Shown here piece by piece: positions 2,063 through 58,967 of a stretch of DNA of 64,000 nucleotides (positions within the stretch are counted from its first letter, which is position 1; each line of letters starts with the position of its first letter). Made by a program: the position numbers and the translations under genes. The notes beneath the pieces were generated by a model. It made no database searches. It saw nothing but the letters and a program-made list of their open reading frames with translations, and had not been told where the DNA came from. Source of the stretch: Salminus brasiliensis (taxonomy: Eukaryota > Chordata > Actinopteri > Characiformes > Bryconidae); assembly GCF_030463535.1 (NCBI RefSeq), contig NC_132879.1, positions 41,291,970 to 41,355,969 on the forward strand, read 5' to 3'.

Positions 2063-2214
2063 GACTGACCAAAAAATAAAAATCACAGAAAAGTAGACTG
2101 TAAACATACAAATATGAACAAACCTCTTAACTGAATTGAAGTGTTTTATTGCCACAGGTCTATAAAATAATGTACCAAGCCAAGTCTGCCTTTCTTGGTG
2201 AAAGAATGGGTGGT

Positions 2215-2640
2215 TCTAAAAATCTCACTGAATTCAAGCATGGTACTGGAATAGAATGCCACCATTGCAACAAGTCAGTTTGTTCCAGCAAAGGGAAATC
2301 TTAATGCTTGGTCATATCAAGACATTTTGGATAATTTTGGTTCCTTTTCTGTTTCAGCATGACGATGCCCCAGTGCACAAAGCATGGTTAGATAAGTTTG
2401 GTCTGAAAGCCTGACTGGTCTGCACAGAGCCTTGATCTCAACCTGAACTAAAATGGAGATTGCACGCCAGGTCCTCTTCTCCAACATCAGTGCCTGACCA
2501 CACAAATGGTCTTCTGGATGAATGGGGCAAAATTTTCACAGATACCCTCCAAAATCTTGCAAAAGAGTCAAAGCTATTATAGCTGTGAAGGAGAGAGAGG
2601 AGCAACACACCCATTCTAGGTGACCAAGCAATCACGGCCA
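2215..2640 (+). pseudogene. decayed Tc1-like transposase fragment
   Basis: Read on the plus strand with frame breaks, 2350-2600 gives the C-terminal half of a Tc1-type transposase: FQHDDAPVHKAW, then an LDEWGKIFTDTLQNLA-like motif, followed by VKEREEQH. In-frame stops interrupt it (for example after KFGLKA). The block before it, around 2215-2340, has the matching Tc1-like noncoding flavour. It lies in the 5' intron of GEN1 and is an inactive fossil. No intact terminal inverted repeats were identified. Confidence 0.75.
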
Positions 2641-2900
2641 TTCATCAGCTTAGACAGTGGAACCAGGGCCTATATTTGCAAAGCTTCTCAGGTAGCAGTG
2701 CTGATTTAGGAACAGATTCTAAGAGGGTTCATGAATATGTGCTCTGGTGTAAACTTTCTGGGACAAGCACCTCAATTTGTCCGTGTTTATAGGTAACGTT
2801 ATACCACACATTGTCACATACCACACAAGCAGGTCTACTTCAGACGTCGAGCAAAGTATAATGATTCATGAACACAGTTGCTAACTAAACGGTTATATGT

Positions 2901-3112
2901 AGGGCTGCAACAACGAATCGATAAAAACGATAATCGATTATATAAAAGCATCGTCAACGAATCATTGTCGATTCATTGTGTTGCACGATTTGTGTTACTT
3001 GTCTTGTCATATCCGCTTACGTTACCTGCGGTGCTTCGTCTACGCTGGAAAAAATAAATAAGAGTGAGTTTAATTAAAGACATGGATTTTTGTTTTATCC
3101 GATTAATCGAAG
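2901..3112. mobile_element. hAT-like non-autonomous element fragment
   Basis: A terminus reading GGGCTGCAACAACGAATCG followed by repeated CGAT/ATCG steps (TCGATTA, ATCGATTCATTG) is typical of a common teleost hAT-like repeat family. The other side ends near 3108 with CCGATTAATCGAAG, where the Tc1-like element begins. The class is recognised from the terminal motif only; no target-site duplication is seen. Confidence 0.45.
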
Positions 3113-4516
<1,404 letters not shown>

Positions 4517-4826
4517 TATGTCAACTTCCGTGCTAAACTAAATACACTTCAACAATATCTTGTTGATCAAAAACATTTAGGGCAAGAGGAAATTTGTGTA
4601 AATTTAACTTGCAGAATTTAAGGCCACACAAATTTTACAAAACAGTGAAGACTCCAGTCTCGCAGATCAATAAAAATAAATCATAAAACAGTGTTATACA
4701 ATACATTTCCTTAAGATCAACAGAACTATAAAGAACTGTACATTTTTCCAAGTAGTTTTTTGTGAGTTAGGGGCCATTGCTAAACAGACATACTGGGAAC
4801 AAACATTAAAACCCAAACAGAAAGTA

Positions 4827-4947
4827 CAATTAAAAAGGCTGTGCATCATTGTTGTCACCTTGCTTAAGTGATGTTTAATGTGTTCAATTAATTAATTGAA
4901 CATCACTTAAGCAAGGTGACAACAATGATGCACAGCCTTTTTAATTG
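4827..4947. repeat. perfect 47-bp inverted repeat (hairpin) with palindromic loop
   Basis: Positions 4827-4873 are exactly the reverse complement of 4901-4947. The 27-nt spacer contains a further 18-nt palindrome (4883-4900, TTCAATTAATTAATTGAA). The structure is followed 15 bp later by a TA microsatellite. A third, short copy of the arm sequence (AAAGGCTGTGCATCAT) appears at about 5467-5482. It could be a fold-back MITE or a replication-generated inverted duplication. No flanking target duplication was recognised. Confidence 0.9.
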
Positions 4948-4958
4948 CCGATGTAATG

Positions 4959-4962
<4 letters not shown>

Positions 4963-5011
<49 letters not shown>
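4963..5011. repeat. (TA)n microsatellite
   Basis: Uninterrupted TA dinucleotide run of about 49 bp next to the hairpin, followed by a T run. Confidence 0.95.
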
Positions 5012-5014
<3 letters not shown>

Positions 5015-5873
5015 TTTTACATTCAATTAAAGATTTTTCATTTTAATAAGATGTGAAGTATCTTATCTAAAATGTTATTTGCAAACGCTATGTGTCTTTT
5101 TACTTTTCTTTTATTTATGAATTTCATTTGCAATTGACCTGATTACACATTGCTTTAACAAAGAATGAATGTGTTTTATTAGTTGGCAGTAATAGCACAC
5201 AACCTTTGGACTTTGGGTGCGATTAACTGCATTAATTCCAAATGGTTCTCTGTTTAGTGACTTTCAGTTAGATACACTATTAACAGTTGATATCAGTGTA
5301 TGTAGTGTTGTATGCAGTCTGATTGACATTCAAAATCGGATGCGAATAATGTCACAAAATCGGTTGTTTAAACAGGATTTAAGGCGTGTGTGTATTACAG
5401 TTCAAATGCTACTAAAATCTAAAATAATAAAAAGCAGATTCTGTACATTACATGACAAATCAAATCAAAGGCTGTGCATCATCACCTAGTGTGAAGGTTG
5501 AACGTCCAAGCTAACTTTATAGCTAGCTAGCTATCGGTAGCAGCAGGGGTTGACTGTAAGGTGCTAAAACATATCGTGGGAGTGTGAAATAAAACAGATT
5601 AGAGCAGAGCTTGGCAGTAGTTTGGCATATATTTAAAATGTGCTCATCCTTGTGTAGACTGATGCATTAAAACCCACCTACCTAGACAGATATCCTACTA
5701 AACGTTTGCTGGCTGGTTTGTTGACAACAGCAATAAGTGGTAACGATCAAACTCGGGACGTCTGCTTAGCTAGTAACGTAGCATAGCTATATGCTATATG
5801 CGCTAAGAAAAACCTTTATAAACGACACTACTGTAGTAAAACCCAACAATATCCATGGATTACAGTTACTTAC

Positions 5874-6040
5874 AATAGACAGGGGTTTAAATGACTAACT
5901 GTTTGAATTTAGCGCTGCAGTTTGTTTCGGCGCCTCTTTCCTGAAGAAAGAGTTCCCCGCATGTGCCCCTAGTGTTGAGGAGGGCAGCCTGTCGCTTTGC
6001 GCTGACTACTGAGCCTTGCGCTGACTGCTTGGTCTCAGTC
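5874..6040 (-). other. candidate 5' untranslated first exon and promoter of GEN1
   Basis: On the minus strand a strong donor (GTAAGTAA) begins at 5873. Upstream of it lies a locally GC-richer stretch of about 170 bp containing a GGCGCC element. The only downstream minus-strand coding start is GEN1 at 2062, so this is most simply its first non-coding exon, with an intron of about 3.8 kb that holds the transposon fossils at 2.2-4.5 kb. Inferred from one splice signal and composition only; the transcription start is not visible. Confidence 0.35.
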
Positions 6041-6675
6041 TGAACGTTAAGTGTATTTTTGGCTTTTGTTGTATTTGTAGTTTTATTATTCTGTGACCAA
6101 ATTTTCTTTTTTTGATTAAAAAAAGGTTTTGTAATGCATGGATCGCTAATTCGGTGATATTTAGAATATGGTATGGCAGGCAGAAAACAAAAGTTTCATC
6201 ATGAACTGGTAAATTGTAAGTTTTTGGGCCGCTTTGCTTCCATCTAACATCCAGCTAACATCTGAATTCTGCCACTTCTGAGAAAAACGTCCAGAATATA
6301 GCTACATTTAGACGTTTATTTTTCAGCACGTTGTTTGTGTATGTAGATGGCCATGGCAAAAATGTTTTAAGGCTGTTGGCAGTATTTGTCATTTATGGAG
6401 TAATAAAAATAAAAACGTTCAAATGTTTGATTTTTGTTCTGCTTGTTTCGGTACTTCAGATTTATGCACATTGGCGCACACTTAAGTCCACAATGTTCCA
6501 TTTGCATATTTAAACATAACATTTCAGAAAACTTGCAATACAAAAAAATAGTTTTTATTGTAAGTAATCAAGTGGGGATGTTTCATTGTGTTGCATTCAT
6601 CTCTGTTAGCTAACCATTTTCACCCTATTTACCTGCAGTGTCTTGCCTTATTATGTAAAATAATTAAGCCTATGT

Positions 6676-6940
6676 CAAGTCAAGTCAGATTTGTTTGTAT
6701 AGCGCTTTTTACAACTGTTGTCGTCACAAAGCAGCTTTACATAATTAGTAATTAATAAAAGACAGAGACAAAGAAGAAATAACATAAGACATGAAGGATC
6801 AAAGACCCCCAGTGAGCAGCCAACGGAGACAGTGGCAAGGAAAAACTCCCTCAGAGCTGGAGGAAGAAACCTTGGGAGGAACCAAGACTCACAAGGGAGA
6901 CCCGTCCTCCTCTGGTCAGAACTATTTAAACATTAATGAT
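6676..6940. repeat. teleost dispersed repeat (class not determined)
   Basis: The block running from TTGTATAGCGCTTTTTACAA to CCTCCTCTGGTCAGAACTAT, with the internal CAAGGAAAAACTCCCT and GAAGAAACCTTGGGAGGAACC motifs, matches a repeat that I recognise as very common in teleost genomes. I cannot assign it to a class without a repeat library. It sits between the inferred GEN1 first exon and OST4. Confidence 0.6.
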
Positions 6941-7149
6941 AAAAATGACCAAAGCAGATACAACAGATAGTTAAGGCTTAACCTCTTTATTTTAAACCCA
7001 TATGGTGACTGCCCAGTGAAATGAAAAGGATCATGTCGGAGTCGTGTTCAGAGGTATATCCGGTAATTCTGCAGTGATTTGAACGCTGCACGGCTGACCT
7101 GCATGATGACGTGTCTCAGGAGTTTCTAGGCTGTTAGCTGATGCTACGC

Positions 7150-7218
7150 TGAGGAGCGTTGCTGGTATTTCTGTCTACAACCCCTGTCAAAAGACTACAA
7201 CCAACGGCGGCATCCAAT
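7150..7218 (+). other. possible 5' untranslated exon of OST4
   Basis: OST4's coding exon opens directly after a splice acceptor (TTTTCTCAG ends at 7864), so a non-coding exon must lie upstream. A plausible donor (GTATGT at 7219) follows a slightly GC-richer stretch near 7150-7218. This is the best of several weak candidates in 7.0-7.7 kb. Confidence 0.2.
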
Positions 7219-7793
7219 GTATGTGGTAATAAATGTGTTTTTGTAGGTAGACTATATAATTATGTGTTGTGACAATAGTGTCTGTACATAGCTAGCTAGC
7301 GATGTTTTGAATATTTAAAAGGTTTTGAAGTAGCTAGCGTTAGCTGTGCAAGCTAAGCTAACCATGGCAGTTTTTGTGTTTTAGCCGATGTCAGTCTAAT
7401 ATGTTGCCATAGCCAGCTACTACAGTCCTACGTGTTTTTAAAAAAAGTATGCTGATTTAGCACATTTATTTTTATATTAGCCTGTTATGAACGGGTCTGT
7501 CTTAAAGGCTAGCTAGCTAGTGCTAGCTTTTTCAGGGTTTTCACGGGCCATGTAGATAGTTGTTCTATTCTCCGTCTATGACCGAAGATTTTTTTTCGTC
7601 TTGTGTTTAGCTAATCAATAACAGTGAATTGGATTATTCCAATTATTCAGGTTCTGACGTCTTTCTGCTTTTAGTCCATGTCGTGAATATATCTAGTAGT
7701 TGTAGATTGGTGCTAGGTCTGTCGACGAGTGCACTCGGATGATGCCTTCCAAACCACAAGACTGGGGCTACATCAGTGGCTAAGCTTTTGTAA

Positions 7794-7979
<186 letters not shown>

Positions 7980-8511
7980 TTTTCCCATGGATGCGACCCA
8001 TAAGGTAATCACTGAAAGAATGGCCTCAGTCCAGTCCTGAGGAAGCTAACTGACACTATATGTCCACATGTTTGTAACCTCCTGACCTCACTCATGCTTA
8101 TGTAGCTGAATGCAATCAACTGCTCACTGCAATGTTTCAAAAAGTAGTAAAAGCTCTGGGCAGTAGAGATTTACTCCAACAAAAGCAGGATATAAGAAAA
8201 TAGCAATAAATTGCTTGATTGAAGTGCCTGAAGATATGGGTGGGTGATATATTATATTACAATATTTAAAGACAATTTCACAATTCGTCATATTTGTCGC
8301 AATATTTTGACATGCAGACAAAATGCATCAGTAGTGGCAGATTCCTAAAAACTGCCCCCATACTCAGTGATTTATATTTTAAATCTGCTGCACTTCATCT
8401 CATTAAACAGCACTGATGACATTCACAATACGCTCAGAAAAGCAAACACAATTGTGTATCACAATTTCAGTTAAGTTTGTGATCGATGTTGAAAAAAATA
8501 TATATATTTAA

Positions 8512-8547
8512 TGTGTGTGTGTGTGTGTATGTATGTATGTGTATGTG

Positions 8548-8603
<56 letters not shown>
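8512..8603. repeat. (TG)n/(TATG)n/(TA)n compound microsatellite
   Basis: A TG run passes through GTAT units into about 50 bp of pure TA. It lies in the inferred OST4 3' UTR intron, about 40 bp before the terminal exon. Confidence 0.95.
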
Positions 8604-8605
<2 letters not shown>

Positions 8606-8646
8606 CTTACACTATTAGAAGTAAAACATTTTTTGTCTTTTTCCAG

Positions 8647-8770
8647 AGGTTCAAGATGTCACAGGGACCACTGGCAGAGGCAGAAGGAGGATGATTGTCT
8701 GTAAATGTTTTTTGTTTGGGTTTTTTTTTTTTTAAGAAAATGTTAATAAATTTGTAATTCTTTGACCCAT
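8647..8770 (+). other. ost4: OST4 3' untranslated terminal exon with poly(A) signal
   Basis: A good acceptor (CTTTTTCCAG ending at 8646) opens a short non-coding segment carrying AATAAA at 8745-8750, followed by a T-rich stretch. With the donor just after the OST4 stop, this gives a three-exon gene like mammalian OST4. The intron (about 8005-8646) holds an AT-rich repeat-like stretch and the long TG/TA microsatellite. Confidence 0.6.
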
Positions 8771-10890
8771 TTTGTGCTTTTGATTTATATTACCACAGTT
8801 ACTTTCAACAACCTACTGAGTGTTGTGTGTACATTTGTAGTGAATTTAGACCGTATTTTAAGGCTTTAATTAATTTATGATCAAGTTAAAACAGATTTAG
8901 TACACTTTTTAAATTGAGCATCTCTGAGCAGGCGTTGTACCGGGTAATACCCATGATCAAGGTGTGTGAAACATGTTCTCATTAAAATAACTGCTATCAA
9001 AGAACAGGATTCTGGAAGGTTATAGCTGCCTAAACCTTAGAAATACATAGGCTTTCCTTGATGAATGCTTGCAACAGTTTTATACTCTTTAACTCTAACC
9101 AACCAGCACCAGAAGAAAATGAAAGCAAGTAATATTTACATTGAAATAATGCTTATTTGTGCTGACAGCATATTTATGTTTTACTTTAATGAGACATAAC
9201 TGTTCAGTACCGCAAAAGCCTGCTGTAGTTTTCCTAGTTCGCCACTTCAGCTCAGTATACCAGTTTAAATCCCTTTTACTCTTTTTTTTTTTTTCTGCCC
9301 CTCCTCAGCATCTCACCATCTTGAATCTAACAAACACATGATAGTGAAAGTTAAGCTTTGATTTGAAAATGGAAGTGATTATAATGCTGGCTGGTACTTC
9401 AACTGACACACCACCTACTTTGACTTGACAGCAAAAAGATGAGACTTGCTGTCATGTTTAGGGCTAATACCTCTCTGTTTAAGGTATAGCAGTTGTTGGA
9501 TTGTCCAAAACATTTTTGTTAAAATTGCCAGAAAACTTTTTTGTTTCTAAATGTAGGAAAACAAATAGCACTTTTATTAGAAATAGCATGTAAAGGCAAG
9601 CCAGAAAACATGTTTTTGAGCATTACATGCATTGCAAAATACTTTACATTTACATGATTTAAACCCAAGTATGTAATGCTGCAGGCTGGAGCACAAGTAG
9701 GTGGGGTCAGTGAGCAGGCCAATCAGATACTACATTTTTGTTGTCAATCACTTTTTATTGAGCCAATCACTAACAGGAGTTGCCTGTCTATTATTTTTGT
9801 ACTGCATCCACTGGCCTTAACAGGTCCTCCAACAGAAAATTTCCAAAAGCAAATTGATTGAAAAGTCAGGAGCCCTGCTGAACATTGGTTTGCTAGGTCT
9901 CCAGTCTAAGTGCTGGCAAATAAGCCCATTGTTCATGCCTAACTCTGGCTCTGTAAATGGGAAACAAAGAAAGTGATGCAAAAGGTTAATCACTTTTTAT
10001 TATCAGTGTAAATTCAGAAAATATTCTGAATACTGTGTGTATGACTGATTTAATGAGACACAAATAGAGAAAGGTTCTAATTGACTGTATAATACTACTG
10101 GTGTGGCCATCTTGGATTTTGAGTTTGTGGATCTTGGTGGAACTGGTTAGTAAGGCTCTCCCATGATCCCGAATAGGAAATCCAACTTGTGGGGGCATTC
10201 CAGTTGAAATTTCCTACTTGGAACTCAATACAACATCCCAGTTCAAATGGAACACAGCATATTTCTTAGTGCATGTGTACTTTTAACCTGAATTGTCTGA
10301 TTTTTCAGCCTGTGCATGCATGAAAGCAGACCATGGTATTGGAAATAAGCAATCAGCATTCAACAGAGCACCTGCAAGATGTTGATAAAACACTTTTGTC
10401 TCGATGTGTAAAAAATGGCTGGTTAAGACTTGAAGGTTTCCATTGTCTGATTACTCAAGTGCATGTTAATGTGAAGATCAGATTACTGACAAAATCTCAT
10501 GTTCTGCATCGAATTATGAAGTGAATGTGAAAGCACTCAGTGACTGTAAAAAGCATGGACATCATGGTTCCGTCCCTCTTCCCTCCTATAGAAACAAAGC
10601 CAAAACCATCCTCTACGTTGTAAAATTTGCATTGTAGAGACATAGAGAGGTGGAGCCAGACATGCCTAATCATTTAGTTAGACCTACTCCCTTCTCAGAC
10701 CGATCATCTCAGAGAGGCTTCATTGAGCTTATAGCACAGTCTAATGGGGCTTCTCTATAGGGCACTTTTATTTTAAAAAGAAAATTCTGTACAACACATC
10801 TAGCTTGGTCCCTGACTATGTTGTTTTAATTTGTAACAATCTCACTGTTCATACTGTAATCTGTAATATGTCATTAGACTGTCTTGGCAG
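8771..10890. other. intergenic stretch, nothing recognised
   Basis: AT-rich DNA between the OST4 3' end and the L2-like LINE. Frames are short and have no family signature, and I see no terminal repeats or RNA gene. Confidence 0.5.
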
Positions 10891-13490
10891 CAAAAGCCAC
10901 AGCAAAAAACTCACTGTTTACTCAGAAAATAACCTTAGCTAGTTTGGATAGACTAGGATCCAAAGGTACCTCTAAGCTTAGATACTACTAAACACACAAA
11001 AATCAACATGGAGACCATAATACTCTACATTTTGCCAAAGTCTTCTCGGAAGAGGTGGGTCTTCAGTCTGCAACTCTGCAGTTCGGGCACCCAGGGGAAG
11101 TTTGTTTTACCACTTCGGTGCCAGGAAAGAAAAAGACTGGACGCTTGTCTTCCGTTGGTATTTAGGGATGATGGGTCAAGCTGAGCCATACTTGAAGCTC
11201 GAAGGGCTCTTGGTACTGAACGTTTTTCTTTTTTTTTACCATTGCCTTCAAGTATGGAGGGGCTGGTCCATTCTTGGCTTTGTAGGCCAGCGTCAGGATT
11301 TTGAATCTGATGTGGGCAGCAGCTACAGGAAGCCAGTGAAGAGAACACAGCAGTGGAGTGACATGGCTGAACTTAGAAATGTTGAAGACGACCCATGCCG
11401 CTGCATTCTGGATTAACTGCAGGGGCCTGATGGTGTGCAAAGGGAGACCAGCCAGAAGGGAGTTACAGTAATCAAGTCTTGAAGTGACAAGAGACTGAAC
11501 AAGCACCTGGGTGGCCTCTCTTGAGAGGTCTTGTACACCAAGGTTTTGTGCTTCTGTAGATGGAGTGACCAGTGAGTTCGCAAAGGAGATGGCAAGATCA
11601 GTGTGAATTCAAGCAGTTCCCGGGATGTACAGCAACTCTGTCTTGCTGGGGTTGAGTTTGAGGTGGTGAACTGCCATCCAAGAAGAGATGTCAGCGAGAC
11701 ATGCTGAAATGCAGGCAGAAACCTGTGTGTGAGAAGATGGGTTGAGTGTGATCAGCGTAGGAGTGGTAAGAGCATCCATGGGAGTTTTACTTTTTCAAGT
11801 GAGCAAGTGTAGAGTGACCAAGCACTGAGCCTTGTGAAACGCCAGTGGAGAGACTAAAAGAAACGAATGTGTCCCCATGCAGAGCCGATGATACCAAGGC
11901 TGGCTAGGACAGACAGAAGGATCTTGTGGTTTGGAGCATGGGGCTTCTCTGTAACTGCGATGAGAGCAGTTTCAGTAGAGTGCACCGCTTTGTAGCCAGA
12001 CTGGTTAGGGTCCTGTAGATTGTTCGGACTAAGAAAGAGACAGTTGGTTATAGGCAGAACGTTTGAGAATCTTTGAGAGGAAAGAGAGATGAGATGCAGT
12101 TATCCAAGCTGTCTAGATTTGGTTTTCTTTAAGATAGGGACAACTCTGGCAGTCTTGAAGGCGGATGGTACATGACCTGAGGATAAAAAGCTGTTAATGA
12201 TAGAAGAGATGAAAGGAAGGAGGGTTGGAGCAATTGTCTGGAATAGTGTGGATGGAACAGGTGGTAAGACTGTTAGAGGTAAGAAGGTCATCTCTGACAA
12301 GAGGAAAAAAGCAACACAGAGGAGAAAGAGGACTGTGTCTAAAGAAAAGTGTAGAGGCAGGTGGGAAGAATTGGTGGATCTTGTCAACCTTTTCTTCAAA
12401 AAAGGAGACAAAATCTTCCTCAGACAGGGTAGTGGAGGAGTAGGTGGATCAGATGCTCAACAGATGCTTCCAGTTTCTTCTTGTAGGATGATGATTTAGC
12501 AGCCGTTACTTTACTCCACTTTCTTTCAGCCATTCTTAGCTCTCTACGATTGTTGTGGAGAACATCCATCAGCCATGGGGAAGGTGGACAAGAACTTGCT
12601 GACCTAGATGAGAAAGGACAGAGAAGGTTGACAGAGGTGAAGATAGATGAGAGGAGAGTGTTTGTAGCAGTTTCTAGTGGAAAAGAGGAGAAGGATTCAA
12701 GATGTGGAAGAGTGCTCAGGACAGTTGAGGCAAGAGATGAGGGGGATTGAAGATTGCGGTAAAGAGTGGAAGAACTTGTGGAAGTAGCGGTTTTAGAGGG
12801 AGCAGAGGAATCACAGCCACATTCAGAGCAGGAATAGGTCTGCTAAAGATTAGGTCCAGAGTGTTCCCTGCTCTGTGTTGGTGCAGACTAGTTGAATGTG
12901 AGATCAAAGGATGACAGCAGTAGGAGAAGCCATGATGACTGAAGTTTCTCTGATGGAAGGTTGAAATCACCAAGCAGAATAAGTGAGGCGTCAACAGGGA
13001 GTCCACTCAGGAGAACATCAGTGAACATCAGTTTATCAGTGAAATTGCCCAATGGACCAGGAGGGCAATAGGGAACAATGATCTGAAATCTAGTGGGAGA
13101 AAAGACAGTAACAACATGGTATTCAAAATAGGAGATGTCAAGATTAGAAAAAAAGAGCGGGATGAAGTGCCACATTGGAGAAAGGAGCCAGCCTGTGCCA
13201 CTGCCCCTGCCTCTCCTTTGTGGACAGTGGGAAAAGGCAAAGGCAGATAACAAGGCAGCTGCAGTTGAAGCAGCTGGAGTTGGAGCAGAAGCAAAGGCTG
13301 AAATGAAATCTGCTTTCTGCACTGCACACGGGTAATTCCAGAGTCCCCCAGTCACCATGGGTATTAGAACAAGATAGGTAGATGAGGTTACTGGAATTTC
13401 GGTGTCTGCATTTCCGTCTGGTGTCAAAAGTGTGGGCAGGAATTGAGAAGCACATTTTAAAATACAATACAAATATGTAGTTCAAATTTG
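10891..13490 (-). mobile_element. L2-type LINE, decayed, nearly complete ORF2 region
   Basis: On the minus strand, 13490 down to about 11025 encodes, with many frameshifts, the ordered parts of an L2-clade LINE protein. The apurinic endonuclease part has LLGDFNLPSEK near 12995-13020 and RAGNTLDLIFSRP near 12840-12880. The early reverse transcriptase part has GHVPSAFKTARVVPILKK near 12130-12185. A later RT motif, LNPSKTELLYIPG, is near 11610-11655, and the C-terminal block SRLDYCNSLLAGLPLHTIRP is near 11415-11485. The 3' noncoding part (10910-11000) is recognisably related to the LINE tail at 52290-52440 but lacks the terminal motif (see findings). The element is dead: no frame longer than about 190 codons survives. 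Confidence 0.88.
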
Positions 13491-15655
13491 CTGTTCATAT
13501 CCTGATGATGTGATTCAGAAGGTCATGCAAGTGAGAAAGGTTTTAACCTGAATAAGCTCCATAATAACAGAGCAAATATGTAACAGTTTACTGAAAACAA
13601 CTTTCTCTCAACAACTTTCCCAACTAGCTGTTGTTACGGGAAACCTTACTTACTTTATGTGTGTGATTCTTAATCTAGTAGTATGCAAGTGTACTTCAGT
13701 GTATTGTAATTAAGTTATGATGTTTTCTCTCCTATGCAGTATGCAAGACTATGGCACATGTATAGAACACACATACTCTGTGAGTCATCATAAAGCTCAA
13801 GTTAAGAGTAGTTACACTCTGATATGCTGGTTGCTCAAGTTTTTGCCCTTGTATGGTAGAATAAGTCTGTGAATGTTTCTAATATGTGTATGTACACTTG
13901 CAGGGGTCATAATTGCAGAATTTACATATGAAGTCTGTTGTATTATGTGTATTGATTTTAAAACTTGGCAAATTGTAAGTTACTTTGGTGGCAGTACGTT
14001 AAATTATATATTATAATATAATATTATATATTATGTTAAGTTTCCCAGCATTTTGAGTTATTGCATAGGCAGCAAGACACTAATGCAGTTTCCCTCTGTT
14101 TTTGCCAATAACAGTATGTTGGAGAATCAGTGGACAAAAGTAAAAGGCAAAGGATGTTAATCATTTTTTTACTTGTTTCACAGTGGAGCATATCAAGGAA
14201 AAAAATATGTCCTTGTCACTAACATATTAATAACATTAATAACACTAACATAATAGTAAGTTACTGTTTTCCAGGTGGCTCAAACATAGGGCAGGTTGAG
14301 CCAAAATATATTATATTCTGTTGTATATGATTAAAATATCACTTAACTAACTTAATCCACCCCCCGAAAAAAAAAACCAGCCCCATCGGTAGCTTAGTTT
14401 TCAGGGGATAATTAATCCGCAGAAAAAAATACCTTATTCTTCAGTTGGACTAAACTGAAAATGAACTGCTCAGCTATGTCTCACCTGTGTATTTGGGACT
14501 TATGTAGCAGAGTAACAATAAGTAATATTAGGCATACTGATGATGTTGGAGTTTTCACAAATGTCTGGGTCACTCCTAGTTTGATACTAGTCCACCACCA
14601 AAAATATATATCCAGTCAAAAAGGGCTCTAAGGTCAGAAGCTGAACTCCAGAAAAGGGCTAGTTTGTGTTATGTTATTGATTAACACATAATATTGATCA
14701 AACACTTACAAAATAATATTCTGTAGATGGAGGTAAGGTAAAGTATCAATCATTCAGAGTGCTCTGCAAAAAGATGACAATTATACATAAACAACAACTG
14801 TAAAACTATTAGAGAAAAGATCTGGTTAACTGCTGAGAGTAAGGCAGGGCAACAATTCCAGAAACGTATAAAAGTTACTCTGATCTGGGGCTTCGTTTTC
14901 CGCCATCTTTACGGGGCTCTTTTTTTCCTGCATTGCATGTATACAGAAAACCTACCTTGGCTGCAGCCTAGGCTTTGGAATGCAGCTATTATGTTCAAAC
15001 AGTAATTCTGTGCATTCCCTTTTTAAAACGCCAGTTTCCAGTCACACAATACCAGGCTTCTATCTCTATAAATGGAGAGAGACCATAAAAGGTCGGAAGA
15101 GCAGATGTCTTCCTGACTTTCTTTGTAACCGACAACACGTTACGCGTTATGAGAATTATTACGCCATTTATCATCTCTGGTTTAGGTCAAAACGTCATAT
15201 CTTTGACATGAAGATAGCTTTGGAGAGAACCCATTATGCTTCATGAATATGAAGCCTCTGTGTTATAAGAAACTGCTTTGTGACACATGTTTCCTCCCTA
15301 CAACCTGCAGAGCTTCCAACTCTCAAGCACTGGCTGCAAGACTTATTATATGAGGTCTACTTTCATGCCATACTTGCCTCCGTAATGTGAAGGAGACTAG
15401 AAAAACTAGAGATGTAATGGAAAAGTCACCAAACAGACAAAACAGTTTAGGCAGAGTCCTCTGGGTTCTAAGACAGGGGTGAAAGTGTGGAAAAAGGGTC
15501 AGATGTCTATTCACTTACCCAGATGTCAGGTTTATTTAAGAAAAACAACAACAAAAAAAGATCACACAAGTGAAAAGTTTGGACCACTAGCTCCTCTATC
15601 AGCCCCCCATATTATTTCAATATAGTTGTATACATATGTTGTGTCCACTGCCTTC
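13491..15655. other. intergenic stretch between L2 LINE and AGBL5 3' end, nothing recognised
   Basis: AT-rich, with only short open frames. The 88-codon frame at 14980-15246 has no recognisable family features. I see no RNA genes or terminal repeats. A slightly more GC-rich patch around 14880-15200 has no interpretation that I can defend. Confidence 0.5.
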
Positions 15656-18409: not shown

Positions 18410-31834
<13,425 letters not shown>

Positions 31835-32562: not shown

Positions 32563-32963
32563 GTTTTAATCTCAATTCCACAGAACTCTAGCTAACCTAT
32601 CTAGCTAATAGTAGCTGCAATGAGGTATCTAGCTAACGCACTGCATTTTTTGTTAACTCCCTGTAAGACTACACCTTAATCACACAATAATTGTTTCATT
32701 TGAAAGGCATTGGAGTAGACACATAAATACAAAAATGAATTCAAATGACAAAATACTTATTGACCTCACTACACATAAATGAAGTGTCTGTATTCAGTCC
32801 ACACTACATTTTAAAATTCACTATTCAGTATATAGAGTACAGTCACAGAATACACTGCACCAAGCTATTTAAAATAATTAACATTACTGCAAATGTTTTA
32901 ATCTCAATTCCACAGAACTCTAGCTAACTACCTAACCTAGCTAATAGTAGCTGCAATGAGGTA
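32563..32963. repeat. duplicated segment copy A bracketed by ~65-bp direct repeats
   Basis: The 257-bp segment 32640-32896 is nearly identical to 34531-34795. It is flanked by two copies of a ~65-bp sequence (32563-32627 and 32895-32963, starting GTTTTAATCTCAATTCCACA and ending GCTGCAATGAGGTA), so the insertion is accompanied by a direct repeat of the flank. It lies between the AGBL5 start codon and its inferred promoter. Confidence 0.88.
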
Positions 32964-34530: not shown

Positions 34531-34795
34531 ACTGCATTTTTTGTTAACTCCCTGTAAGACTACACCTTAATCACACAATAATTGTTTCATTTGAAAGGCA
34601 TTGGAGTACAAACACAAATACAAAAATGAATTCAAATGACTTATTGACAAAATACTTATTGACCTCACTACACATAAATGAAGTGTCTGTATTCAGTCCA
34701 CACTACATTTTAAAATTCACTATTCAGTATATAGAGTACAGTCACAGAATACACTGCACCAAACTATTTAAAATAATTAACATTACTGCAAATGT
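34531..34795. repeat. duplicated segment copy B
   Basis: Same sequence as 32640-32896 in the same orientation, with a small insertion (about 8 bp, an extra TTATTGAC-like unit) and a few substitutions. Ends at AAATGT in both copies. It lies between the AGBL5 promoter and the TMEM214 3' end. Confidence 0.88.
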
Positions 34796-42500: not shown

Positions 42501-44422
42501 GTAGAAGCCAGCCTGGCCAAGAGCCCACATGATGCTCAAACATTTGGCTGGGCGATTCTGGTGAGAGCGCAGCAGCTCCAGGTGCTGCAGATATCACACA
42601 AAGGACAACAATCATGTCAGTGTCTAAAGAACATACATGCAAAATAAAGACAATGCTAATTAAAAGCTTTTCTACTGTTAATTCATTCTGAGGTCATTTG
42701 GAGCCAAATGCGTGTTATCTATACATGATAAGATTGCTGTTGAGCAAATTAGTCCTCTGGGGCCCCTGAGAACTGCTCCAAGAATCTGTGCTCTTAGCAA
42801 TGCTAGGAATGAACAATGGCCAACTTGAAAGTAAGCTGATTAAGAATCTTTGAGTTATTTTAATTCTAAAGAACTACACCTGGGAAAACTAACACTGAAT
42901 AGGACACAATATTAGCTCAAATTTACATTAAAAGAAGGGGGTAAAACCCCCCAAAAAAACCAAACTGCCTTCTAGTAGTTACTATTCACTACTCCCATCA
43001 CTACATACTTGTGTGTTCACATCAGGTCTTTCTTAGGCTACAACTTTTAACATTTCTGCACATGCCATGTTATATTCTGCTACAGAATTCTCTAAAAATG
43101 TCAGCCAAATATATATATATTTTTGAAGTTACAAAAGGAGACAAGATCAACATATTGTCACTGTCCTGCAAAAAAAAATGGAGCATATATACAGGTTAAT
43201 TTATAAGGAATTTATTTAAAGAATTGTGAGATGTAAAAAAAAAAAAAAAAGGGAAAGCGGTAAGAATGGAAATTCAAGGTTTTGGAGTGACAGTGACAAT
43301 ATGTAGCTATGAACAGAGAAAGCACTTTGGGGCAGCCCATATAGCTTAATCCCCACACCCACTCACATCAGCCAGGTTGAGTGTGGCTATTTTGGGTTTG
43401 TTCATCATGATTGCCTGAATGCACATCCGGTAGCCATGCAGGGGTTCACCTGTTAAAGCACAGAATCAGACAGTGCTAACAAAGGTCACAGTTGCAGACT
43501 GACTGTAGACATACGTCTTAACTATGCCAATAAGCACGGCAACAAACACAAAGCATTATGTTTAGCATGAACGTCACCTGTTGGTTTGTCCAACTCTCTG
43601 AGCATGGCGAGTATGCAGTGGTCAAAGAAGTCTTGCAGAGTGTCTGTGCTTTTTCCAAGTAGGTTCCTAATGACATTGCGCAGCTCCTTCCCCGCAAGAC
43701 AATACGGATAATCTAGACAGAGAGCCTCTTGTTTAGCAAAGCTATTTCACATTATACTGAGGTTTTCATTCATGCTTCAGGGTTAATCTCACTTTGTCAA
43801 CAAACTAGACAGCAGAGTCAATAACCCTTCACCACAGAATGCTTCAGGGATTTTGACCACTTTAACAGATTTTTCCAAAAATGAATGTCTTGGTCCCATG
43901 GTGCATCTACTTAATTATGTAATTTAAATAATAAATTTACACAAAGTAAGTGGATGACACACTTCGTTGTAGATAAGATCAATCAAGAGCTTAACTTAAA
44001 TATCTGATGCTAAACTGAAAATTGAAGTGGTGAACTTTTTAAACAAATGTAAAAGGGCGAACTGACAAACTAAAATATTCTGAGCAGATTACTCAAAACC
44101 AATCTTTTGCAACTAGAACAAATAGGATAGCCTCTTCACCCTTAGCCTCCTATTTTGCAACAATATGCCTAAAATGAGAGCAAGAAGGCAACCCTGAGAA
44201 AAAGTAAGGCAGGGTGAACACATTTCGAAAGTAAGCCAGACCTCCAAGCACAACTTACTTACACAAGATGAACTTACAGGAGTCCTGCTAAGATACCGCG
44301 CTTTATTGATAATTCATATTTCATACAGTCTTTAAAAAGAGCACAGTACAGGAGTCGTTCAGTGACTCCTACAGGATCACCTTCCTTTTAAACTATTACA
44401 AGGCTACCGTTTCATGGAGGAG

Positions 44423-44458
<36 letters not shown>

Positions 44459-45766
44459 AAAGTGTTGTTAGACAAAGACAGTCAAACCAGGACCACAAAA
44501 GTGCTGAGAACATGCATGATTCTTATATCTACTTAACACCATTTACTTAAGAGAGATGTGTTGAAGCTTAAGTTATTCTAAACCAAATCACACACCAACA
44601 TCACATTACACTAAATAAACATTGCATTAGAAACATGTAAAATCCTACATCATTTTTTTAAAAGAAACACAAAAGGCGCAGAATATGCTGAATATGTTTT
44701 CCAGGCACTTCTGAGCAACTCAAATATCCCCATCAATAAACAGTACACGGAAAGGACTGAACGGTTTTAGACGCTCACCATGAGCATGGCTGCTGAGTGT
44801 GGGGTCTGTGTCGGGTGCAAGCAGTTTGCTGTTGAGGTATCCTGCCAGATCCTTCACCCACACACATGGATTCTCAGGAAATAAAGCCTGACTTTTCTCA
44901 AGCTGTTGCCTCAGCTCTACAACATCCAACTGTGAAAAATACAGAGTGGAAAAGAGAAATCTAGAAGTGAGGATCATTTGGAAAGATGTCTAAAACAGGG
45001 GCAGGCAACACAAAAGACATTTCATGATGCATGAGACTGCAATATTAACAGCAACAGCAATATTAACAGTAACAGCAACCAACAGTTTTAGAAAACTCCA
45101 CCCTTGAGAAATGTTCAGAAAATGGAAGGGACGGTTTGGAGGGTGCTACAATGCAAAACATAACAGATAGCGGTATAGCCCAGGGTCCACCTCACTGTGA
45201 AGCAAACACACCCTGTTGACACCATTACAGTAATGCTGACAAAACACTTGCACACATTTCAAAACTGCCTAAGAAAAGTGCAATCCCACGACCTCAGGAC
45301 ACTAGTCTTCAGCTCTTGGGGCTCTGGCATGTCACTCTCTCACACTCTCACACACTCTCTCTTTTGAAAAGTTGTGTTTTACACGATTCTATCTCCAAAA
45401 TTTGTTTGCCCATGCCATACTTTTAAATCTACTGATCAGGGCATTCTGTTAGTTTTATATAACATAGCCATAAGGTGATCGAACTTGTTTCTCTGCACTG
45501 TTTGAGAATGTTCTATTTAGAACAGCTGCAACCTTAAATTTATTTAAAAATATATAAATAAATAATAATAATAAAAAAAACTAAACGAAAAATTCAATTT
45601 AGACTAGAGGTGGGCAATAAATGTTACATTCATCACTGATTTATACATACAGTCTTTGCCCACTTCTAGTCCAAGTAACTAAGTGACTGTACAGTGCAAG
45701 CCTACTAGTTAGAAAGAGAATTGCATGAGTGTGTGAATGTGTGTGTAGTTAAAAAATAAATAAGTA

Positions 45767-45835
<69 letters not shown>

Positions 45836-46509
45836 CACCACTGTTAGAATGAGTTTTACATGACAAGGGTGCATACCAGCAGGTTTGTAAGAATAAGAGT
45901 TTACACTCACAGCTTTGACTGCGTCCTCCAAGGTTTTGTAGTGGATCTCTTTTGGACTGCAGTTTGTGGGAGATTTCTTGTTCTGCTTTCCTGTGTTGGA
46001 CTTCTTCTGTTGGGCCTCAGCTGGTGGAGGGACCTGCTCTTTATTCTGCTTCTTTACAATCTTTTCAAAACTTTCAAATATGGTCTCGGACATCTTCACG
46101 GCCGCTGCAATCAAACAAGGAGAAAAATGATAAATGTAAAAGGGCGAACTGACAAACTAAAATATTCTGAGCAGATTACTCAAAACCAATCTTTTGCAAC
46201 TAGAACAAATAGGATAGCCTCTTCACCCTTAGCCTCCTATTTTGCAACAATATGCCTAAAATGAGAGCAAGAAGGCAACCCTGAGAAAAAGTAAGGCAGG
46301 GTGAACACATTTCGAAAGTAAGCCAGACCTCCAAGCACAACTTACTTACACAAGATGAACTTACAGGAGTCCTGCTAAGATACCGCGCTTTATTGATAAT
46401 TCATATTTCATACAGTCTTTAAAAAGAGCACAGTACAGGAGTCGTTCAGTGACTCCTACAGGATCACCTTCCTTTTAAACTATTACAAGGCTACCGTTTC
46501 ATGGAGGAG

Positions 46510-46545
<36 letters not shown>

Positions 46546-48487
46546 AAAGTGTTGTTAGACAAAGACAGTCAAACCAGGACCACAAAAGTGCTGAGAACAT
46601 GCATGATTCTTATATCTACTTAACACCATTTACTTAAGAGAGATGTGTTGAAGCTTAAGTTATTCTAAACCAAATCACACACCAACATCACATTACACTA
46701 AATAAACATTGCATTAGAAACATGTAAAATCCTACATCATTTTTTTAAAAGAAACACAAAAGGCGCAGAAGACGCACACTCTACTGAAGGTAGTACTATT
46801 AGCACCTACCATGCACATGCAACTAGGCCTGAGTATATACATGTCCTCAGTAATACCTCATTCCATAAGCAAATAAGGTACAGCAGGCAAACTAAAAATA
46901 ATGTCCATATAACTAGATGTACACCCTTAACGTAACACAAGCAAAGTTTCGTATGAAAGCCTTAAAACCTGCCATATGGGACCTCCATTATGGTCTCTTA
47001 ATATGATATGAGGTTGAATTAATTTAATAAAACTCAACTAAGACAATGTTCCAGATGTGAAGTATCAAATCACCAAAACAGCACACTGTTACACAACTAC
47101 AATCAATAAAAACACAACAAATAACCATACATATTAGTAACCATACACAAAGTAGAACAATGCATGTCTGTGCCACTTCTAATCTTTTGGTGCTCTACAA
47201 AAACTTTACAAGAGGCGAAAAAGATCATGAAGACAACCAGAAACGTAAAGTCAAATGTTAGACACAATGACATTCGCCTGTTTCCTTATTTGAGATTAAT
47301 TCGGTTAATGAGGACAATGTGATCAATCATAAGAGCACAGACGCAAACAATTCTACGTTTTGAAAACACAGCATGAATCCAACAGACTTTTTGCTAGAGA
47401 ACATCTCAAACAAGTTTATTAGTGAATAAGGACCATTGTACACCCTCCCTGCCAAAATCTATCCTTAGCTAAAGCAATGTTAAAGTCATATGTCTTATCT
47501 CTGTATAAAAAGAGAGCCTAACTCTAGGGCAGAGACTGTGACAGCCTTATGAAACCAAAGTGCTTCAAGGAGACGGGCTACCAAACAGCAAGCGGAGTCA
47601 ATGTGCTTTAAACTTCTGTAAATCATACCCAAGAAACGCAGAGCAGAGTAGCTTGATTATTTCTTTTTATTTTCTGCAAGTTAATCATGTCGTGATTTGC
47701 GCATGCAAATAAAAGTTTCTCTTGAAGGGTCTCTCCATACATAATTACAACCATACTGTCAGAGACAGCCAGTGAAGGGTCAATGATCACTAAGCAAGCG
47801 ATAGCTAACTAGCTAGTGCTAGCTACATCGTTAGCTTATTCCTAAGCTAGCGTGTTGCTTATTCACCTTTGCAAGGACTGTCAGTCTGTAAATTATAAGT
47901 TATTCATTTCCTGCAAACTTCTACTATGCTTAATGAATGTTTAATGTGCACATCAATTTATAACAATAAAACATATATAGCTAGCTATAGTATGCAAGCC
48001 AAACGTGACGACACTGCTTAGCTTAGCTAGTTAGCTCTCTAGTTGGTTAGCGTTAGTTAGGCAAGGTTAGTAGCCAAGTTAGCTGCTAGCAAACAAGCCT
48101 GTTCTAGGTTTTTCGAAAATTATAATAAAACCCATTCTGTTAAAACTGCAAAAAAATCTATCCACAGAAAACATCTCGTGTAATTAAGTGTGCCAGTAAC
48201 GCAGCGCTAGCTAGCCAAGTGACATCCCGCAGGAACATGGCTAGCGCCAAAGTCAACGTTTTAAATCTGCACGCTGTTGAGCGACGTGGCACTTCACGTC
48301 CAGCATTTTTAGTAATAAAATAAAACAACTTACGAAATGGGTCAACTCTTGGTAAATTGGACTCGCTTAACGCTTTCCTGCCGCCGCCAGACTTCTTGTC
48401 AGTTTGACTTTTTACAGCGCTATGTTTCTTGCCTTTCCTCACTACCTCCCATTTCCCCACAGAACTGTTATTTACTGGTGATGCCAT
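36536..48487 (-). CDS. tmem214: TMEM214 ER transmembrane protein (683 aa, 16 coding exons)
   Basis: Exons (minus): 48334-48487, 45911-46104, 44779-44929, 43578-43712, 43367-43449, 42479-42584, 42168-42249, 41929-42030, 41147-41288, 40943-41034, 39638-39686, 39425-39532, 37777-37982, 37452-37620, 36865-37016, 36536-36662. They sum to 2052 nt, an open frame of 683 codons plus stop with all phases agreeing; human TMEM214 is about 689 aa. Diagnostic stretches include VGKWEVVRKGKK (N-terminus), KKQNKEQVPPPAEA, FFDHCILAMLRELDKPTG, RPAKCLSIMWALGQAGFYDL, LTKGFGVMGPKEFFPLLDFA and FPSFLSRATPSCP. The cytosolic helical body precedes a hydrophobic membrane segment at about 478-493 (LLLVMLVFAAGFIAHD). TMEM214 is known as an ER protein reported to anchor procaspase-4 under ER stress. 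All introns are GT-AG except intron 9, which uses GC (GAG|GCAAGG). Introns 1 and 3 each carry one copy of a 639-bp duplication. Confidence 0.97.
38279..38330. repeat. (TTTA)n-like microsatellite
   Basis: Imperfect TTTA/TTTTA units in TMEM214 intron 12. Confidence 0.85.
38930..39345 (-). pseudogene. decayed Tc1-like fragment in TMEM214 intron 12
   Basis: Plus-strand phrases such as TTTTGGGTCATTGTCATGTT (reverse complement of the NMTMTQN-type region) and a degraded internal block are shared with other Tc1-like fossils in this window. No intact ends. Confidence 0.45.
40098..40744. mobile_element. hAT-like non-autonomous element with inverted termini
   Basis: The left end ATGCACCGGTCCGATATTAG is mirrored by the right end CCGGATCGGTGCATCCC. 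The terminal and subterminal GATCGGATATCGG motifs recur inside. This pattern marks a common teleost hAT-like family of about 650 bp without a transposase. Lies in TMEM214 intron 10. I could not find an 8-bp target duplication. Confidence 0.65.
41413..41738. mobile_element. non-autonomous repeat with GGGCTAGGCAATATGG-type termini
   Basis: The left end (GAGCTGGCCAATACGACAAT) and the right end (reverse complement GGGCTAGGCAATATGG) form imperfect inverted repeats around an AT-rich body that includes a poly(A) tract. A related body lies at about 8230-8480. In TMEM214 intron 8. Confidence 0.5.
42320..42465. repeat. (CT/CCCT)n polypyrimidine low-complexity tract
   Basis: About 145 bp of almost pure C and T (purine on the TMEM214 sense strand). 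It fills most of the 229-bp intron 6 of TMEM214 and ends about 14 bp from the exon 6 donor. Confidence 0.95.
44045..44683. repeat. 639-bp direct repeat, copy 1 (TMEM214 intron 3)
   Basis: Identical by eye over its whole length to 46132-46770, including a 32-A homopolymer (44423-44454). The copies are offset by exactly 2087 bp and in the same orientation. It begins AAATGTAAAAGGGCGAACTG and ends AAAAGGCGCAGAA. It contains no coding sequence. Confidence 0.97.
45772..45830. repeat. (TA)n microsatellite
   Basis: Pure TA run of about 59 bp in TMEM214 intron 2, followed by GCGCGC. Confidence 0.95.
46132..46770. repeat. 639-bp direct repeat, copy 2 (TMEM214 intron 1)
   Basis: Second copy of 44045-44683, ending just upstream (in transcript sense) of TMEM214 exon 2; its left boundary lies 28 bp from the exon 2 acceptor. 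The segment between the copies holds exons 2 and 3. Confidence 0.97.
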
Positions 48488-52284: not shown

Positions 52285-52440
52285 CACACATTTACATTTA
52301 CATTTACATTTACGGCATTTAGCAGACGCTCTTATCCAGAGCGACTTACAAAGTGCTTTGCTATTTACCCAAGAAAAGCCTTAGCTAGTTAGAATAGGCT
52401 AATAATTCAAAAGATACCTCTAATGGGGAAGTTTTAACGG
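52285..52440 (-). mobile_element. L2 LINE 3' tail (or SINE sharing it)
   Basis: The minus strand ends GTAAGTCGCTCTGGATAAGA, then GCGTCTGCTAAATGCCG, then a TAAATG tandem repeat, the classical 3' terminus of teleost L2-type elements. The part at 52370-52430 is related to the 3' part of the longer LINE at 10.9 kb, so both come from one family. Confidence 0.75.
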
Positions 52441-56900: not shown

Positions 56901-58967
56901 TGTTTTTAACCGCACAAGGCGTACTGTTCTCAACTCTACGATAGCAAAGACAAACTCGCACCTTAAATCAAGCTGAGATTGCTAAAATAGTGCCCATGGT
57001 GTTAACTGTAGCCTTACAGGAAAACTGAATTTTACTCCTCACTTAATACCTGGCTGTGATAAGGAAGTCATTTGGGGGTGCTTTTACATGATGGCAATTC
57101 ATGCCTTTAACGTCAACATAAGAAATCTGTAACAGAGGTCATTTTCATTAAAATTTTGAAAAAAAAAAGCTGATGCTAATGACTGAGACGCTTTCAGACA
57201 ACAACAGAGCTTAAACCACAACATTTATTCACACATCTTTGTTATGTGTGCACAGTAAATGTGCCTCAAAAAAATAAAGCCACAGCTTGGCCAGTTGACC
57301 CACTACTGGTTTAAAAACCCAGAGCACATTGCACGTATAAATACCTTCAAGTGAAGATGTTAAGTGTCTGACAAGAACAACAAGTGAGTCTGCCCAAAGC
57401 TAGAACACATGCTAAGAACAGTAGCTGTTTCTGCCAGCAAGTATCACAAAAGTGTATACCCTCACTGTTAAAACAACATGTTCTCTCAGGTGTGTTAATA
57501 TAAAAAGAGTTGACTAGCAGAGTTCTCATGGTCCATTTCTGTTGTAAAATAAAACATGAAATCATGAAAAAATTGAAACAATTGAAAAAGCAAAAGCTTA
57601 TTTTTAATATGCCACAAGCATCTTACAGAATGGCTCATAGTACCAATCAAAAATTCCCCAAATACACAGTTTTTCTGGGGCCGGCTAAGGTGACCTAATT
57701 TCGATCTATTTCACACACTGAGCATGTTTAAGAAACTCACATGGAAGCAGACATAATCCAATTAGTTTTGGAATATGGCTCTTCCAATACTTCCTGCTTT
57801 TCAGGGAAATATTTTTAGGTTAGCAAACAATGAGTTCACCTGGATTAGGTGGGGGGGTGATCTCCTGTCCTTGTCGTGCCGCCTGGGGGTCGTACTCTTT
57901 GCCATCATAGTTTGCGTCAAAAAATTTCTTAAACCACTGAACAAACTCAAAATTATCCTGGAACTTTCCCTTCACCAACCTTTCAACCGGGATGATCTGT
58001 AACAGTAAAAAATAAGTAATAATAAAAAGGGTTATTATAAGTTCACCACACTCATGAAATTTACTTTACAGTATGTAGTTACTAATGGCTCTCACCTTGT
58101 CCACATTCATTTTCTTGAAGGCTGCTTGCAGCACTTTGAAGTTGTGGATGTATTCATGCTCCAGTTTTGCCTGGAACTTCACTTTCTTCAGCAAAACACA
58201 TCCAGGGAATAGCATATCCATAAACTGGCAATATGATGCACCTGAGAGACATTATACACACACAAAAAAAGAGTTATATCGCCACTGCGCCACACAAAAA
58301 GTGTGTCACGGTATTCAAGTTCTATAAAACTGCCAGTAACTGCAGTAAACTGCAGAACCATAAAACTGCCAGTAATCCTCATTCATGCCCATTATGAAAT
58401 ATTTGATACCAATTAATAGCCCAAAGCTACTGTGAATCCCAAATCTCTAAAATCTAAACCACAATTAAGACTCTCCAAAATACAATTGTTGAGATCCATG
58501 TTATATTTGTAGCTTTTTAAAGATTCTTTCACATGTACAAAATTTGAATCAAAAGATAAATCGTCTGGGCTATTTAAATTGGTCTTGGTCTTGCTATTTA
58601 AATTTGCAAACCTTATAACAACATGCATGTTAGCATGACAATTGATTTAGTAAACAAGAAGCTATTATGTAATTATGGAGGATGAAAATAATTGTGATTT
58701 TATTTGTTCCAATAAAGCACTCTCTCCAATGAGAAGAACCAAATCCACCTTGAATTGGAAGGAAATAATTGTTTGGAAGTTCAGGATGCAGAAAAAAAAA
58801 TTATCCTGCTCTGTTGTGTACACTTTAAAAAGAATATTTCACTTACCTGAACAAAGCTGCTCTATCTTGGTGTAGGTGAGCTGCAAAGAATCGTTGACCC
58901 AAGCAAGCATGTCATGTCTGCTTAGGTTCTCTATGGTCATGGATGTGGAGTACACATTCACCGCCAT
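53984..58967 (-). CDS. mapre3: MAPRE3 / EB3 microtubule plus-end binding protein (263 aa, 6 coding exons)
   Basis: Exons (minus): 58847-58967, 58096-58241, 57840-57996, 56279-56427, 55404-55556, 53984-54049; total 792 nt, open, phases consistent. An acceptor at 58975 precedes the ATG, so there is a 5' non-coding exon. Residues about 14-116 form the calponin-homology domain that binds growing microtubule ends ([69 protein letters not shown]). A basic, Ser/Pro-rich linker ([20 protein letters not shown]) follows, then the EB-homology coiled coil ([19 protein letters not shown]) and an acidic tail ending EEF, a CAP-Gly ligand. EB3 rather than EB1 is favoured by the PPPNPG linker and the TMEM214 neighbour. 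Human EB3 has 281 residues; this model lacks the ~15-residue segment after PPPNPG that one human isoform also omits. Confidence 0.94.
54971..55372. mobile_element. Tc1-like non-autonomous element with ACACCGATCAGCCATAACA termini
   Basis: The left end TACACCGATCAGCCATAACA and the right end (reverse complement ACACCTATCAGCCATAACAT) are near-perfect inverted repeats about 400 bp apart, with no transposase between them. These are the ends of a Tc1-like family that I recognise in teleosts. The right end lies about 30 bp from the donor of MAPRE3 exon 5, inside intron 5. Confidence 0.8.

Follow-up and report, generated by a model that had tools for sequence, protein, structure and literature searches.

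The DNA analyzed here is a 64,000-nucleotide stretch of the Salminus brasiliensis genome (contig NC_132879.1 of assembly GCF_030463535.1, positions 41,291,970 to 41,355,969), below called the window. It contains a pair of direct repeats, termed X, in the gene TMEM214. The gene around X lies on the minus strand and was identified through a fragment of exons 3 and 4 matching Pfam PF10151 (E = 3.1e-38). Exons 1 to 4 possess GT/AG borders and splice into one open reading frame around the X copies. The intron lengths are 2,229 nt for intron 1, 981 nt for intron 2 and 1,066 nt for intron 3. The initial annotation had placed the two copies in introns 1 and 3 of TMEM214, as non-coding DNA, and the Pfam match, the splice borders and the open frame support this placement. 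The parts of the locus are given below in window coordinates, where A32 denotes a run of 32 A residues.

48334..48487, minus strand, TMEM214 exon 1, coding part (MASPVNNSS...), followed by the donor GTAAGT
46132..46770 (genome C2:41338101-41338739), X copy 2, in intron 1 of TMEM214, with A32 at 46510-46541
45911..46104, minus strand, TMEM214 exon 2, 194 nt, AG/GT borders
44684..46131, spacer between the X copies, 1,448 bp, containing exon 2, intron 2 and exon 3
44779..44929, minus strand, TMEM214 exon 3, 151 nt, AG/GT borders
44045..44683 (genome C2:41336014-41336652), X copy 1, in intron 3 of TMEM214, 60% of the intron length, with A32 at 44423-44454
43578..43712, minus strand, TMEM214 exon 4, 135 nt, AG/GT borders

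The two X copies were compared base by base. This comparison revealed identity at 639 of 639 positions, in direct orientation and with an offset of 2,087 bp. The same offset and a base-for-base match including A32 had previously been read by eye; both held, and the mismatches that such a reading might have missed numbered zero. The block is not extendable, the first base beyond either end being different. Outside X, the sequences at this offset shared 6-21 identities per 50-base bin, which is background (the bin cut by the end of the block was left out of this range). Among the four 300-base flanks BLAST detected no match longer than 16 aligned columns. When X was searched against the window, matches other than the two copies spanned at most 44 columns and mostly hit the A run of X; the longest A or T run elsewhere in the window is 18. 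Chance as the source of the X pair is excluded.

The whole genome (1,066,335,885 bases in 103 contigs) was then searched at E <= 0.001. Exactly two matches to X were obtained, both within the window and both with 100% identity, in a search that passes over simple repeats and words of very high frequency and could therefore miss a buried common repeat. Thus, X is not a repeat family. The spacer matched in full length only at the TMEM214 locus; the other eight of nine rows were short pieces, including the TA repeat of the window itself on the opposite strand. For the left flank (43000-44044) the only full match was likewise the TMEM214 locus, with short pieces in the other 8 of 9 rows. The same applied to the right flank (46771-47800), where 39 of 40 rows were short pieces (40 of 42 candidates scored) and all of these fell in one stretch, 47268-47418. 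This stretch of intron 1 is a dispersed repeat, which the genome carries at a minimum of 39 other sites with 70-82% identity. The genome searches with X, the spacer, the left flank and the right flank revealed no second contig of the locus. A phage collection, which is poorly suited to animal DNA, gave no match to X. In the assembly, X is an otherwise unique segment with a second, non-adjacent copy, the arrangement that characterizes a dispersed duplication.

A second direct duplication was observed in the window, at 32640-32896 and 34531-34795. Its copies agree in 253 of 265 columns (95%) at an offset of 1,891, and eight of the 12 differences belong to one gap. The copy at 32640-32896 sits between two copies of 63-67 bp (32565-32627 and 32897-32963, 92.5% identity); 12 nt separate it from the left one, and the right one directly abuts it. 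Judged from the sequence, this flanking duplication suggests the mark that would be expected of a staggered break filled in around a templated insert. Its divergence makes an assembly error an unlikely source of the second pair. This second, older pair suggests earlier local copy-and-insert events in the region.

How exceptional the X pair is was gauged on 20 stretches of this chromosome, each 10 kb long (200 kb, no N), which were compared with themselves (at least 100 columns, E <= 1e-10, low-complexity filter on). None of the 200 kb contained an isolated two-copy direct repeat of at least 100 bp at 98% identity or more. Pairs of 87-92% identity with offsets of about 1-2.3 kb, outside tandem arrays, were present in four of the 20 stretches (91.9% in L020, 90.3% in L021, 87.6% with a third related copy in L024, and 90.7% at the stretch end in L030). 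Further pairs below 86% occurred in L020, L023 and L033; some of the sampled pairs may be mobile-element copies. Tandem arrays were found in L019, L022, L028 and L032, among others, and L034 (C2:31000001-31010000) is occupied over nearly its whole 10 kb by a long tandem array, whose repeat units are nested and whose pairs reach 99.8%. Nearby direct duplicates are not rare, and a perfect pair is unusual in this small one-chromosome sample, with which a window chosen because of its perfect pair is compared.

The X pair is probably a very recent dispersed (non-tandem) direct duplication of unique intron DNA, which belongs to an ordinary class of variants. A 639-bp stretch of unique intron DNA would have been copied about 2 kb along TMEM214 in the same orientation. 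The copying most likely took place while a break or a collapsed fork was being repaired, through template switching or strand invasion, as a templated insertion of the type made by microhomology-mediated break-induced replication (MMBIR) or synthesis-dependent strand annealing (SDSA). The locus has the order L-X-M-X-R; L, M and R are unrelated to one another at each of the four junctions, and exons 2 and 3 belong to M. One insertion of a copied segment would suffice for this order, most simply a templated insertion from 2 kb away. The flanks show nothing that points to transposition or to a misjoin by overlap. A very recent duplication, one of the origins initially proposed, fits best, with zero differences outside A32. 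Most likely both copies are real, arose by such a mechanism and date from very recent time, so the duplication is possibly still polymorphic.

Several points weigh against this reading. Both copies are known from one assembly consensus alone, and no ancestral empty site was seen, which leaves junction microhomology unscorable. A tract such as A32 is unreliable in any consensus; its equal length in the two copies therefore says little about the date. A rare assembly error would likewise agree with the lack of any other perfect pair in the 200-kb sample.

Such an error, in which a single real X was placed twice by misjoining, gap filling or haplotype mixing, appears unlikely. A copied consensus would yield perfect identity including A32, and false duplications are widespread in vertebrate assemblies according to the available part of PMC9516828. 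However, no N occurs anywhere in the 64-kb window and hence no assembly gap lies between the copies. Moreover, the 1,448-bp spacer has its sole full-length match at this locus, and the DNA to either side of each copy is unrelated, so there is no flank overlap to explain a misjoin. The absence of a second contig of the locus from the searches points the same way, although a purged haploid assembly would show none anyway. The unrelated DNA bounding each copy, together with exons 2 and 3 in the spacer, makes the usual patterns of false duplication fit poorly. Consequently, the joining of two haplotypes or of a repeated contig end, as considered in the initial annotation, became less likely. The same is true of its proposal of homogenization by gene conversion. 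Direct copies 2 kb apart are good conversion partners, and an older duplication could be kept identical in this way, but the identity reaches both ends of X exactly and then drops to background, while conversion usually leaves diverged edges. In addition, the other duplicate pair in the window stands at 95%. We consider conversion very unlikely. A tandem duplication of X plus spacer with later loss of the extra spacer would give the same final order of parts. It requires two recent events, and no remnant of a second spacer was present in the 300-base flanks or, beyond short repeat pieces, elsewhere in the genome, which makes this route highly improbable.

It is extremely improbable that X represents a mobile element such as a short retroelement with A32 as its tail. 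The A32 tract resembles a poly(A) tail but is internal to X and not terminal. A transposable element should have many dispersed copies, and only the two X matches were found in 1.066 Gb by the genome search with its skipping of simple repeats and common words. No terminal inverted repeats or target-site duplication were found at X: perfect inverted repeats of at least 9 bp are absent within it, and BLAST among the 300-base flanks detected no flanking duplication at either copy. The initial observation that transposon ends are lacking was thereby borne out. No Rfam family matches X. At a lax threshold, Rfam gave five matches in 43900-46900, all on or around the TA repeat at 45762-45885 and all below the gathering score.

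The age of the duplication was estimated in two ways, both with assumed rates. As the copies do not differ at any of the 607 bases outside A32, their divergence has an upper bound of 0.49% (95%). If point mutations arise at 3e-9 to 1e-8 per generation, this corresponds to at most about 0.25-0.8 million generations. At an A32 instability of 1e-4 to 1e-2 per generation the age would be at most about 150-15,000 generations, a limit only as good as the consensus of the tract. Instability of long A tracts is treated in the available part of PMC12769509, from which no rate for A32 was taken.

The direction of copying was considered with the end of intron 1. On the sense strand, 27 nt of intron 1 separate the 3' end of X copy 2 from exon 2. 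Two candidate sites with the branch-point motif yTnAy lie here.

46131, minus strand, candidate branch-point A in a yTnAy motif, 26 nt from the final base of intron 1, adjoining the sense 3' end of copy 2
46137, minus strand, second candidate branch point, inside X, 32 nt from the end of intron 1

With X in place, no AG separates the yTnAy sites of intron 1, 26 and 32 nt out, from the intron end. Without X, the sole other site in intron 1 lies about 55 nt out, with AGs between. The direction may weakly be read as intron 1 (original) to intron 3, because branch-point motifs fall in the usual AG-free range only with X present. A branch-point-like motif would equally be supplied by 44% of random window stretches, and the argument is therefore weak. 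The intron-3 copy might also derive from RNA, in that a break in intron 3 would have been patched with a 5'-truncated cDNA, made from an intron-1 lariat with its tail trimmed off or from circular intronic RNA. This idea, which we regard as very doubtful, arises because X in intron 1 ends, on its sense 3' side, exactly one nucleotide before the candidate branch-point A at 46131 and because X has the same orientation in both introns. The coincidence of edge and branch point was noticed after the fact. Among the literature matches listed, intron lariats as templates concerned mostly group II introns.

Exons 2 and 3 of TMEM214 together comprise 345 nt. A deletion between the X copies would thus join exon 1 to exon 4 in frame with the loss of 115 codons. 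It had been suggested that recombination between the copies would delete or double these two exons; the layout agrees, and the loss would additionally be in frame. If real, the pair represents a fresh, perhaps segregating duplication whose junctions could reveal how local copy-and-insert events arise in vertebrates. In that case a perfect 639-bp repeat flanks two exons, and recombination could give a TMEM214 allele with 115 codons deleted in frame. As an artefact, the pair would provide a small example of false duplication without a gap.

The remaining features of the window concern neighbouring genes and mobile elements. MAPRE3, TMEM214 and AGBL5 form a vertebrate synteny. In a search against solved structures, 57820-58065 matched the EB family, with EB3 as the best match (E = 4.2e-29). 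Positions 25605-26186 resemble AGBL5, which we presume them to encode; Pfam did not confirm it. Pfam was run on five pieces of the window and gave no match for the putative MAPRE3 piece and the putative retroelement piece. A weak Rubella_E2 match on the putative AGBL5 piece was below the cut-off and was discarded. The sole Rfam match over the whole window, outside X, is a UnaL2 LINE 3' element (52309-52362, minus strand, RF00436, 67.8 bits). Together with the MAPRE3-TMEM214-AGBL5 order, this element suggests a fish genome. An open frame on the minus strand at 3145-3699 has a DDE_3 transposase match (Pfam PF13358, E = 2.7e-12) and appears Tc1-like by eye. Positions 21699-22855 contain an inverted pair of about 210 bp with 82% identity, perhaps remnants of mobile elements. 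A tRNA scan of the window found none.

A literature search on TMEM214, intron, duplication and fish gave a sole match, unrelated by its title. Compared with false duplications as presented in the available part of PMC9516828, X is similar in being an identical extra copy on the same scaffold, but differs in having no gap, a unique exon-bearing spacer and unrelated flanks. Tandem duplications from staggered breaks are discussed in the accessible portion of PMC5730883, whose references include Vaughn and Bennetzen 2014. The second pair in the window (32565-32963) fits this class, whereas X differs from it in that neither copy has a flanking duplication. In human genomes, dispersed duplications have been described as a class, mainly attributed to MMBIR in the part of PMC9510932 at hand, and are counted as a simple structural-variant class in the corresponding part of PMC12583596. 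Unlike the human cases, X is seen in one assembly, in two introns of one gene, with no allele lacking the copy. It resembles dispersed duplications and templated insertions in that a segment was copied to a non-adjacent place and carries no transposon features.
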